Shown here piece by piece: positions 2,965-33,079 of a DNA stretch of 64,000 nucleotides (its first letter is position 1; every line of letters starts with the position of its first letter). Made by a program: the position numbers and the translations under genes. The notes under the pieces were generated by a model. It had not been told where the DNA came from. It searched no databases and worked only from the letters and a program-made list of their open reading frames with translations. The stretch comes from Nodularia sp. NIES-3585. GTDB lineage: Bacteria > Cyanobacteriota > Cyanobacteriia > Cyanobacteriales > Nostocaceae. Where the stretch lies: positions 445,567-509,566 of the forward strand of contig NZ_BDUB01000001.1 in assembly GCF_002218065.1 (NCBI RefSeq), written 5' to 3'.

Positions 2965-6864
<3,900 letters not shown>

Positions 6865-27124: not shown

Positions 27125-27505
27125 TTAACTACTAATCGCGCCTCTGACTAAGATTACTGTACAGTCTACACCAGAGGCGATCGCTTCGGGAATATTACCT
27201 TGAACTGCTTGCTTTAACAATCCCTCACGAGAAGCCCCTAAAACTACAACATCATAACCTTCGGTTTTCACGAGGTTAATCACTCCTTCGGCCACCGAAT
27301 CAGCTTGAACGGGGATAGCAACTACATTGCTGGATAATTTACGGCGACGCATTAATATGCGGATGGCTTGTTCTAAAACTGTCATGTCTGGTTTTAATTG
27401 AGATGGTTTAAACACCTGCGTTAGCCGAATGTATGGATTATTCCCCAATGTCGCTAAAGCAGGTAATAATTTAATCGCTACTCTGGCATTAGGTCCGCCA
27501 GCCAT
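27125..27505 (-). pseudogene. Out-of-frame C-terminal Usp domain of the ClC channel gene
   Basis: The frame codes a second universal-stress domain (MAGGPNARVAIKLLPALATL ... YDVVVLGASREGLLKQAVQG). In this frame it continues upstream without a stop through RWLVT and into the heptamer tract, i.e. it belongs to the ClC gene upstream but is shifted by one base. Whether the ATG at 27505 is ever used is doubtful; no ribosome binding site is seen. It could be expressed only after a change in repeat number. Confidence 0.75.
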
Positions 27506-29861
27506 TGTGACTAGCCAACGGTTGAATTGGGGAATGGGGAATGGGGAGTGGGGAGTGGGGAGTGGGGAGTGGGGAGTGGGGAATGGGGAGTGGGGAGTGG
27601 GGAGTGGGGAGTGGGGAATGGGGAATGGGGAATGGGGAATGGGGAGTATTACCCAGTTTTACTAGCATTACGTCGCAGGTGGCTTGGCGAATTATGGTAT
27701 CTACAACATTGCCAAAAATCCGTCCAGGTGTAGAAGTTTCACCTTTCCACCCCATTAAAATTAGATTGATGTGTCGTTCGTGGATGGTTTCCAATATTGC
27801 CTCGGCTGGGTCGTGGGCGACTCTAATTTGGGTGTGTAAGGGAATTTTCCACTTTTTAGCCAAAACTTCCGCTTGTCGTAGTAGGCGGCGACTTTTGGCG
27901 GTTCTGACTGCTGTTTCTGAGGGGGAACTCTGACGCGAGACTAATATTACTTGCACGCACTCGATTTCATAGTGGCGATCGCGCGCAATAGCTGCGGCCA
28001 TTTGTAAAAGGATGGCGGCGGTTTCGGGATTCGCTACTGGTACTAATAATCGACCTCTGCCAATATTAGGCGATCGCGTTTGATAAACGACATAAGAAGG
28101 TTCCGGCTGCGATTTTGGGGTAACATTGCCATAATTAAGATGTTCGGCTTGGGCGCGGATGATGTCTGCACGGGTAATAATTCCTACTAATTTCCGACCT
28201 TCCACCACTGGTAAGCGGCTGATTTGATAGCGATCTAGCAAATACAAAACATTACTGAGGTGATGCTTGGGTTTGACAGTTATGGGGGAGTGGATCATAA
28301 TCTCCCTTAAGGAAACATCCTTTGGTGACTGCCTATTGCTCAGGATGTAGGAATCACTATCGCGTTTGGTGACAAAATCCGATTGTGTGATAATTCCTAT
28401 GAGCTTGCCGTTTTCTACCACCGGAAAGCCACGATGATGGGAGAGGGAAAAGACTTGCATTGCTTCTTCTAATGTCATATCTGCATCCAGAGTTTCGACT
28501 CGATGCTGCATAACATCGTTGGCTGTTAACTTGGTTAATATTCCTTCAGGGGAAACGGCTTTAGTAATTGTGATGCCTTTTAGCTGTAATAGTTTGTCAT
28601 ATAGAGATCCAGGGATGACTTTGTCGGAAACCAAGTAAGCGGATACAGATACAATCATCAAAGGTAATACCAGATTGAAATCTGTAGTCATTTCAAACAC
28701 AATCACAATGGCTGTAATTGGTACTTTAGAAACGGCGCTAAAAAAACCGCCCATACCTGCTAAAGCGTAAGTTGTGGGAGAATCCACTGCTAAAAAATAA
28801 GCGGCGGATACACCAATTAGGTGTCCTAAACAAGAACCCAAAATTAGACTCGGTGCAAATAACCCCCCAGGCGCACCGGAACCAAAGGCGATCATGGTGA
28901 GAATAAATTGAGATAAAAAGGCGATCGCCGCGAAAGACACATTAGCTTCACTGATAATCATATACTCCCGTAATCCGGCATAATCACGGAAAGATTCGGG
29001 AAGCATGGCCACCACAAGACCGGAAACACATCCAGCTAAAGCCATTTTTAGCGGCAAACTGAGGTGGAAAGTTTGATAAAATTTGATACTGGCGATCACA
29101 CCACGGTTAAATAATGCACCCAGAAATCCTGCTAAAATCCCCAACAACACAAAAAAGGGAATTTCTGGCAAGGTGAAGTTACTAGAGTATTGCAGCAATT
29201 CCAGGTTGAGTTGCAAACTGCCGCCACCCAACAGTCGGGATACTACACCACCAATAAACGAAGCGATAATAGCAGTTCCTAAAGTCAGCCCTGATAAATC
29301 CTGGAGTAATTCTTCGACGATAAACAATACACCTGTGATGGGGGCATTGAAAGCAGCTGCTAAACCCGCACCCGCACCCGCCGCAATCATTTGCCGTCGA
29401 TGATCTGGGGAAGTGGGAACCCAGCGACTCATTCCGGCGGCCAAACCTGCGCCTACATGAACGGTGGGGCCTTGTCGCCCCAAAGCCATCCCGGAACCAA
29501 GGGTAATAATGGCACTGACTAACTTTATAATTGCGACTCGCCAGGATAATGTAATTGGCACATTAGCCAGCGTAGCTTTAACTTGAGGAATACCGCTACC
29601 TGATGCCTCTGGTGCAAATCTATGCACTAACCAGCCAGCTATAAACCCAAAGCTCAGACCAATGGCAGGTAAGATTAACCAGGCTGGGAAAGTTTGGCTA
29701 GTCTGGACTCGCCATGTCCCCAACCATCCTGACCCCATTTTCAGCGATACCGCAGAAAGGGCAGCGACAAGACCAATAATACAAGCTTCGGCGATCGCTA
29801 AACCTCTTCTCGGTTGCAACCAAAGGCGAAAGCGCTGATTCAGAGCAGAAAGCGCCATCAT
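27489..29861 (-). CDS. ClC-type chloride channel/transporter with CBS and Usp domains (frame ends in repeat)
   Basis: A membrane anion channel or exchanger. The ClC domain covers about residues 1-425 with the selectivity motifs GSGIPQVKA, GRQGPTVHVG and GSGAPGGLFAPSL; the second motif has Gln where ClC transporters carry the gating Glu. A CBS pair (about 440-570) and one complete Usp domain (about 595-735) follow. The frame then runs into a 17-unit heptamer tract coding PHSPLPT/PHSPFPI and stops soon after at 27489, while the natural second Usp domain lies in another frame at 27125-27505. ClC-Usp proteins of this kind in cyanobacteria normally continue into that domain. Confidence 0.88.
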   Translation of the reverse strand: MMALSALNQRFRLWLQPRRGLAIAEACIIGLVAALSAVSLKMGSGWLGTWRVQTSQTFPAWLILPAIGLSFGFIAGWLVHRFAPEASGSGIPQVKATLANVPITLSWRVAIIKLVSAIITLGSGMALGRQGPTVHVGAGLAAGMSRWVPTSPDHRRQMIAAGAGAGLAAAFNAPITGVLFIVEELLQDLSGLTLGTAIIASFIGGVVSRLLGGGSLQLNLELLQYSSNFTLPEIPFFVLLGILAGFLGALFNRGVIASIKFYQTFHLSLPLKMALAGCVSGLVVAMLPESFRDYAGLREYMIISEANVSFAAIAFLSQFILTMIAFGSGAPGGLFAPSLILGSCLGHLIGVSAAYFLAVDSPTTYALAGMGGFFSAVSKVPITAIVIVFEMTTDFNLVLPLMIVSVSAYLVSDKVIPGSLYDKLLQLKGITITKAVSPEGILTKLTANDVMQHRVETLDADMTLEEAMQVFSLSHHRGFPVVENGKLIGIITQSDFVTKRDSDSYILSNRQSPKDVSLREIMIHSPITVKPKHHLSNVLYLLDRYQISRLPVVEGRKLVGIITRADIIRAQAEHLNYGNVTPKSQPEPSYVVYQTRSPNIGRGRLLVPVANPETAAILLQMAAAIARDRHYEIECVQVILVSRQSSPSETAVRTAKSRRLLRQAEVLAKKWKIPLHTQIRVAHDPAEAILETIHERHINLILMGWKGETSTPGRIFGNVVDTIIRQATCDVMLVKLGNTPHSPFPIPHSPLPTPHSPLPIPHSPLPTPHSPLPIPHSPIQPLASHNGWRT
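27528..27646. repeat. Heptamer STRR tract, 17 units of TGGGGAR, inside the ClC gene
   Basis: Seventeen uninterrupted seven-base units (10 TGGGGAG, 7 TGGGGAA by my count), 119 bp. The length is not divisible by three, so it sets the frame of the downstream domain. All three frames on both strands are free of stop codons within the tract. Confidence 0.95.
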
Positions 29862-32908: not shown

Positions 32909-32967
32909 GTTTTGCCGTGAGATTCTGGCGACTTTATATTTTCTTATATTTTCATCATAAGAGGGAA

Positions 32968-33079
32968 TGGGGACTAGGGAGTGTGGAATAGGGAGTGGGG
33001 AGTGGGGAGTGGGGAGTGGGGAGTGGGGACTAGGGAGTGTGGAATAGGGAGTGGGGAGTGGGGAGTGGGGAGTGGGGAG
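32968..33079. repeat. Heptamer STRR with 56-bp higher-order period upstream of tab2
   Basis: Sixteen heptamers arranged as two identical blocks of eight: TGGGGAC TAGGGAG TGTGGAA TAGGGAG and four TGGGGAG. The pattern shows that a whole 56-bp block was duplicated. It begins 60 bp upstream of the tab2 start. Confidence 0.95.

Follow-up and report, generated by a model that had tools for sequence, protein, structure and literature searches.

A 17-unit heptamer array places the last domain of a conserved ClC-CBS-Usp-Usp protein out of frame in Nodularia sp. NIES-3585, a possible reversible frame switch

In Nodularia sp. NIES-3585, the reading frame of a ClC-type gene enters a tandem array of 17 heptamers and terminates shortly thereafter, leaving its last domain (Usp2) one base out of frame in an otherwise intact coding sequence. 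The uninterrupted fusion is conserved across the host family, and a frame break of the same geometry occurs at the same linker in a second genus. We propose, with a confidence just short of even, that a G-rich heptamer array of a known type outgrew its frame-holding length and thereby became a slippage-prone, reversible frame switch, a by-product of repeat expansion rather than an evolved form of regulation.

Results

Usp2 lies one base out of frame beyond the heptamer tract

All coordinates refer to the window, the 64,000-nucleotide stretch of contig NZ_BDUB01000001.1 that was analysed. A minus-strand ORF spanning 29861..27489 encodes 790 residues in which Pfam identifies a ClC domain (Voltage_CLC, E-value 3.8e-95), two CBS domains (1.5e-28, over two stretches), and one Usp domain (6.8e-22). 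The Voltage_CLC profile (PF00654) is matched at 319.4 bits against a gathering threshold of 24.8, with positions 1-346 of 346 covered. The locus is organized as follows:

27657..29861, minus strand: ClC channel/transporter domain, two CBS domains, and Usp1, residues 1-735 of the ORF (Pfam)
27528..27646, plus strand: 17 perfect TGGGGAR heptamers, most of the coding sequence for the Usp1-Usp2 linker (TRF, unit count)
27489..27527, minus strand: out-of-frame ClC tail 3' of the tract, ending ...LASHNGWRT (frame map)
27125..27526, minus strand: Usp2 (FNRWLVTMAGGPN...), +1 relative to the ClC frame, with an internal ATG at 27505 (Pfam, frame map)

A prior sequence-only reading of this DNA described 17 TGGGGAR units with the ClC frame terminating soon after, and both statements hold: every unit in 27528-27646 is perfect, and the ClC-frame stop codon (27491-27489) falls 36 bases past the tract, which TRF reports at 27528-27647 with 17.1 copies and a score of 191. 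The tract is G-rich on the plus strand and consequently C-rich in the ClC mRNA. Its placement of Usp2 one base off, in a frame open back across the tract, was also confirmed, as the Usp2 ORF (27505..27125, the coordinate 27125 of that reading being its end) is +1 off the ClC frame and extends upstream across the tract before the first stop, at 27661; the portion from ATG 27505 matches Pfam Usp at 2e-07. The tract was said to be stop-free in every frame, and none of the three minus-strand frames has a stop within it. As in SSR phase-variable genes, the repeat unit is not a multiple of three and lies inside a reading frame (17 x 7 nt). The Usp1-Usp2 junction measures 151 nt (1 modulo 3), so that removing one unit or adding two restores the frame, in agreement with the earlier arithmetic that 16 or 19 units, or any number equal to 1 modulo 3, would yield one continuous protein; by summation, its length would be approximately 909 or 916 residues.

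The other ClC match in NIES-3585 was rejected as a ClC-Usp backup copy since, among the matches listed, it is 29% identical over residues 72-496 and stops short of Usp. In the split protein, the external-gate Glu of ClC proteins is replaced by Gln (motif GRQGP, window 28589-29861, minus strand), such that the residue characteristic of H+/Cl- exchangers is missing. The same Gln is present in all of the 100 loci, out of 110, whose motif matched the search pattern. Gln at this position of ClC-ec1 uncouples Cl- from H+, and its presence here suggests a natural passive chloride pathway.

Congeners carry fewer units and keep Usp2 in frame

The 300-base flanks of the tract located the same site in four congeners (G001-G004) and align up to the tract itself (within 4 bases in G003 and G004). 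Unit numbers are 17 in NIES-3585, 7 in G001, and 4 in G002; G003 and G004 harbor a different insert at the tract site that begins with a heptamer remnant. Usp2 is in frame in all four congeners, leaving NIES-3585 as the sole out-of-frame member of the five. Two checks put forward in the sequence-only reading are thereby answered: counts of 4, 7, and 17 units were obtained from three members of the genus, with the 4- and 7-unit arrays both in frame as the 1 modulo 3 rule predicts, and comparison with intact ClC-Usp homologues showed that relatives carry a single ClC-CBS-CBS-Usp-Usp protein. The variation in unit number among these relatives is variation between species, with a dS of approximately 0.3 in the ClC-CBS-Usp1 part.

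The NIES-3585 Usp2 is 95-98% identical to the fused Usp2 of the four congeners and carries one unique replacement and two unique silent changes in 133 codons. Its pairwise dN/dS against the four ranges from 0.041 to 0.081, compared with 0.049-0.095 among the intact congeners. Judged by these substitutions, Usp2 is not decaying, a state that fits a recent break, a reversible break, or an artefact alike. A plain pseudogene was set aside for now because of the low Usp2 dN/dS and the intact ClC part. Silent divergence to G001 is 0.133 in Usp2 (27125-27526, minus strand) versus 0.317 in the remaining gene, which perhaps reflects recombination with a breakpoint near the tract.

The fusion frame is conserved across the host family

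In a first survey of 60 genomes including NIES-3585, the best ClC-CBS-Usp match per genome usually occupied a single frame of 866 to 996 residues; the exceptions were NIES-3585 (791 residues), some shorter frames from a few other families, and genomes in which the only ClC is a distant one. We then assembled 110 loci (L009-L118), comprising 30 from the first survey, that of NIES-3585 included, and 80 more, partly from the same species. Both Usp pieces are present in 107 of these, and 106 of the 107 are in frame without a stop, NIES-3585 being the only one out of frame. The three loci lacking one or both pieces are two that are cut by contig ends (L085 and L108) and one that has lost Usp2 (L063).

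A family-wide search, in which 149 genomes were covered in the first search and the other 60 were re-searched individually, found Usp2 in 209 of 217 genomes, with the best match in a frame of fusion length (at least 860 residues) in 204 of the 209, a count that slightly overstates the intact orthologues because the best Usp2 match of G183 is a fused paralogue and its true orthologue is truncated. The five genomes below fusion length are NIES-3585 (G000); G239, described below; G131 and G120, whose contigs terminate inside the linker; and G209, in which a 276-residue frame reaches the contig start and a second copy of the gene is fused (the motif filter identified no ORF in L173, the stretch fetched for G209). 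Second copies in G188 and G195 have shorter frames, yet both are fusions whose linker keeps the frame. Across genomes, this pattern clearly points to selection on the fused ClC-Usp-Usp protein.

Two loci show Usp2 in a reduced state. In L063 (Nostoc sp. CHAB 5836), the start of Usp2 is kept as far as FNRWLV and is followed by unrelated sequence (4100-4400), and the G183 orthologue (L170, 4239-4688) retains only a stretch matching Usp2 residues 63-133; these are independent losses of Usp2. Outside the host family, 271 of 291 surveyed genomes had a Usp2 match, and among the short frames listed, 11 stretches from 10 genomes were followed, with others (for example G285 and G446) left aside. In one, G045 (L174), the linker is out of frame and contains no repeat, indicating that not every linker break needs slippage. 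The other 10 of 11 were discarded as linker breaks, the linker being in frame and the breaks lying elsewhere or at contig ends.

Short tandem repeats concentrate in the Usp1-Usp2 linker

Linker length ranges from 13 to 96 residues in 91 distinct versions, NIES-3585 included. Arrays with a TRF score of at least 50 occur in 30 of these 91 linkers (8,890 bases), compared with an average of 0.2 over 20 mononucleotide shuffles; the 198,312 bases that encode ClC-CBS-Usp1 in these 91 genes contain three. At a score of 30, arrays are found in 45 of the 91 linkers versus 1.9 in shuffles, a threshold at which the rest of the gene also matches in 60 of the 91 genes. Most repeat units measure 7 or 8 bases or a multiple of these, some being 9-mers, and they include several unrelated sequences such as AGTCAAC, CAGTCCC, ACTCCCC, and GGACGCGG. 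In a model of the L039 CBS-Usp-Usp portion (mean pLDDT 73.5, pTM 0.55), the linker is disordered, with pLDDT below 50 at residues 301-331 as well as at 59-70 and 139-161, so that insertions should be tolerated while the frame is kept. A structure search with this model retrieved CBS-containing proteins and no Usp protein among the best 50 and is thus uninformative on Usp packing.

The linker set was enlarged with G239 and 60 more loci to 168 usable linkers, 125 of them distinct; L063 (Usp2 replaced) was excluded and L108 gave no linker, while L085, a candidate out-of-frame linker, was dropped as its contig ends there and it has no Usp2. Arrays of 7- or 8-mers with a TRF score of at least 40 are present in 40 distinct linkers, 38 of which are in frame, and the two out-of-frame linkers carry the two longest arrays, at 17.6 and 17.1 copies, followed by 11.1. 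The chance that the two broken linkers would be the two longest among 40 is 1/780, a figure that serves as a guide only given shared descent and a non-random sample, in which G239 was added for being broken and the 60 were chosen mostly for long frames.

The second broken case has the same geometry as NIES-3585. In G239:C1, a contig of 8,388,664 bases, the ClC-CBS-Usp1 frame enters 17 octamers and terminates shortly after, with Usp2 +1 out of frame and open back through the octamer tract, making G239 a second genus in which a tandem array breaks the linker frame. The upstream neighbour, presumably TldD/PmbA-like, is judged by eye to be the same gene as in the NIES-3585 window, which places the break at the orthologous position. 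The two assemblies probably derive from different sequencing projects. G239 is an independent second case that strengthens the interpretation.

The ClC array is the longest of those measured in NIES-3585

Heptamers are dispersed throughout the NIES-3585 genome, with 203 forward and 136 reverse 3-unit matches (overlapping) and none for a control pattern. The genome thus carries many GGGGA-type copies in the manner of the Nostoc G-rich heptamer family. A pattern search for runs of four or more perfect TGGGGAR units returned 33 arrays. Of the 30 that were measured, none is longer than the ClC array with its 17 units, and the next have 13, 10, and 9; this rank applies to these 30 because the pattern, which requires a non-T seven bases upstream, misses some arrays, such as window 32996-33030. 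Six of the 30 lie inside uninterrupted long ORFs of five genes, two in cobN and one each in cobB, two histidine kinases, and a decarboxylase-like gene, and hold 4 to 6 perfect units, with one cobN array reaching 8.9 copies including one imperfect unit. Among the 30, the ClC array is the only one beyond which a conserved domain was found to run on in a different frame, and it is also the one for which relatives were compared.

The cobN-like gene, whose L126 part matches NCBIfam CobN at 1351.8 bits, contains in-frame arrays at window 4347-4388 and 6260-6321, one G-rich on the template strand and the other on the coding strand. In-frame arrays inside genes or at gene ends were also observed at L143, L136, L149, L153, L125, and L138, loci whose genes are cobB, two histidine kinases, a decarboxylase-like gene, homogentisate phytyltransferase, and citramalate synthase. 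At L146 (1507-1594), a heptamer array lies within two bases of a 36-base run of Ns. A 117-base imperfect array with a 56-base higher-order repeat occupies window 32963-33079, a site whose length and content are different in each of the four congeners, and the flanks of the four leftmost arrays of the window had no match in the congener stretches.

Discussion

The sequence-only reading that this is a phase-variable gene is partly supported. In the account that we hold at slightly less than an even chance, a G-rich heptamer array sits in the disordered linker of a conserved ClC-CBS-CBS-Usp-Usp protein, where short arrays would be kept in frame by selection. Expansion to 17 units would have put Usp2 out of frame, and an array of this length would slip too often for selection to hold the frame, each gain or loss of a unit moving Usp2 in or out. 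Since the tract is stop-free in the minus-strand frames and long pure arrays readily change unit number, the channel made by the cells would drift from full length (1 modulo 3 units) to a form that ends after Usp1, and back. We infer replication slippage as the driver, together with its rate and reversibility, any benefit to the cell, and an effect of Usp2 loss on channel control.

A miscount in the assembly, with a true unit number of 1 modulo 3 (for example 16) and an intact protein in the strain, is a serious alternative that we nevertheless consider unlikely. The assembly report describes a Newbler assembly of MiSeq 2x300 reads, both paired-end and mate-pair, at 88-fold coverage and closed in silico (PMC8634303), with 155 contigs before closing, 16 gaps remaining, a minimum overlap of 70 bp at 95%, and k-mer correction. 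The accessible text of a 2026 paper on NIES-3585 (PMC13288894) refers to the same public genome and contains no resequencing. An Illumina-only assembly, and the L146 array running into Ns, make a wrong unit number possible; the near-universal fused frame elsewhere in the family favors it as well, and both long-array cases could be miscounts because long arrays are the hardest to assemble; the G131 and G120 contigs likewise break off in this linker. However, the 119-bp tract fits within one 300-bp read at the stated coverage, all units are perfect heptamers with no N in the window, and the same break is seen in G239. We regard as improbable a fixed recent loss, in which a single slippage event broke the frame and left the strain without Usp2 on its ClC. 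Such a loss is consistent with Usp2 being dispensable at least sometimes, as L063 and the G183 orthologue indicate, but a 17-unit array is expected to be unstable and Usp2 is undecayed, although the same would be seen after a very recent break.

Alternatively, translation could bridge the break, yielding some full-length protein through +1 frameshifting at CCC-C, a sequence prone to such shifts, or a separate Usp2 through reinitiation at the ATG near the ClC stop. All six in-frame CCC-C sites of the 790-residue ORF lie within the tract, and of the 15 such sites in the G239 frame, 8 lie within its tract or at its edge. The same +1 step is needed in both broken cases, and the ORF from ATG 27505 shares its first 17 bases with the end of the ClC ORF. 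Nonetheless, a C-rich repeat brings CCC-C sites with it anyway, and a start at MAGGPN would, according to the model, lose the first Usp2 strand (model residues 337-341), leaving this explanation very unlikely in our view.

Extending the reversible-switch proposal beyond NIES-3585, the Usp1-Usp2 linker might be a recurrent contingency site that heptamers and octamers invade repeatedly, such that past approximately 12 units cells or filaments would reversibly gain or lose Usp2 and otherwise identical filaments of this multicellular phototroph would differ heritably in ion or stress handling; we consider this broader notion doubtful. What the locus offers is a specific gene whose reading frame depends, from species to species, on the number of units, and in which selection on that frame can be read from about two hundred genomes. 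The two longest arrays found both break the frame. The gene bears on whether heptamer repeats make switchable genes in free-living multicellular bacteria.

The ClC domain resembles those of ClC-ec1 and Synechocystis Sll0855 (2.4e-54 to 1kpl and 4.3e-52 to 3nd0), whereas the NIES-3585 protein adds CBS-CBS-Usp-Usp and carries the GRQGP Gln in place of the gate Glu. In the literature searched by titles and abstract openings, we found no report of this ClC-Usp fusion (5 of 5 matches covered) nor, among the best 15 of 85, 12 of 72, and 12 of 56 matches, of a repeat-switched gene in a cyanobacterium. SSR phase-variable (contingency) genes are known in Neisseria and Campylobacter, and likewise possess a unit not divisible by three within an ORF, the number of units setting the downstream frame. 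Unlike these, the NIES-3585 gene is a candidate switch that would affect only the last domain, and its product is an ion channel of a free-living filamentous phototroph rather than a surface antigen.

STRR repeats, to which we take the NIES-3585 heptamers to be linked, serve for fingerprinting cyanobacteria. The closest described counterparts are the G-rich heptamers of Rehm et al. 2015 (PMC4692102), GGGGA(C/T)T in Nostoc PCC 7120, where 68% are intergenic; over three organisms, with Nostoc and Xanthomonas among those covered, unit numbers range from 2 to 26, and the repeats are able to form quadruplexes in vitro. The Discussion of that paper judges a role in phase variation unlikely for G-rich heptamers, and the heptamer repeats that abound in filamentous cyanobacteria are described there as having an unsettled function. 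The NIES-3585 repeats are likewise GGGGA-type and, as with those of Nostoc and Xanthomonas, are dispersed genome-wide, vary widely in unit number, and, as in Nostoc, are partly intragenic. Their unit, GGGGA(A/G)T, has the same design as GGGGA(C/T)T and departs from that consensus in the sixth base, and the ClC array is set apart from the Rehm heptamers in that it lies within the coding sequence of a linker and disrupts the reading frame.
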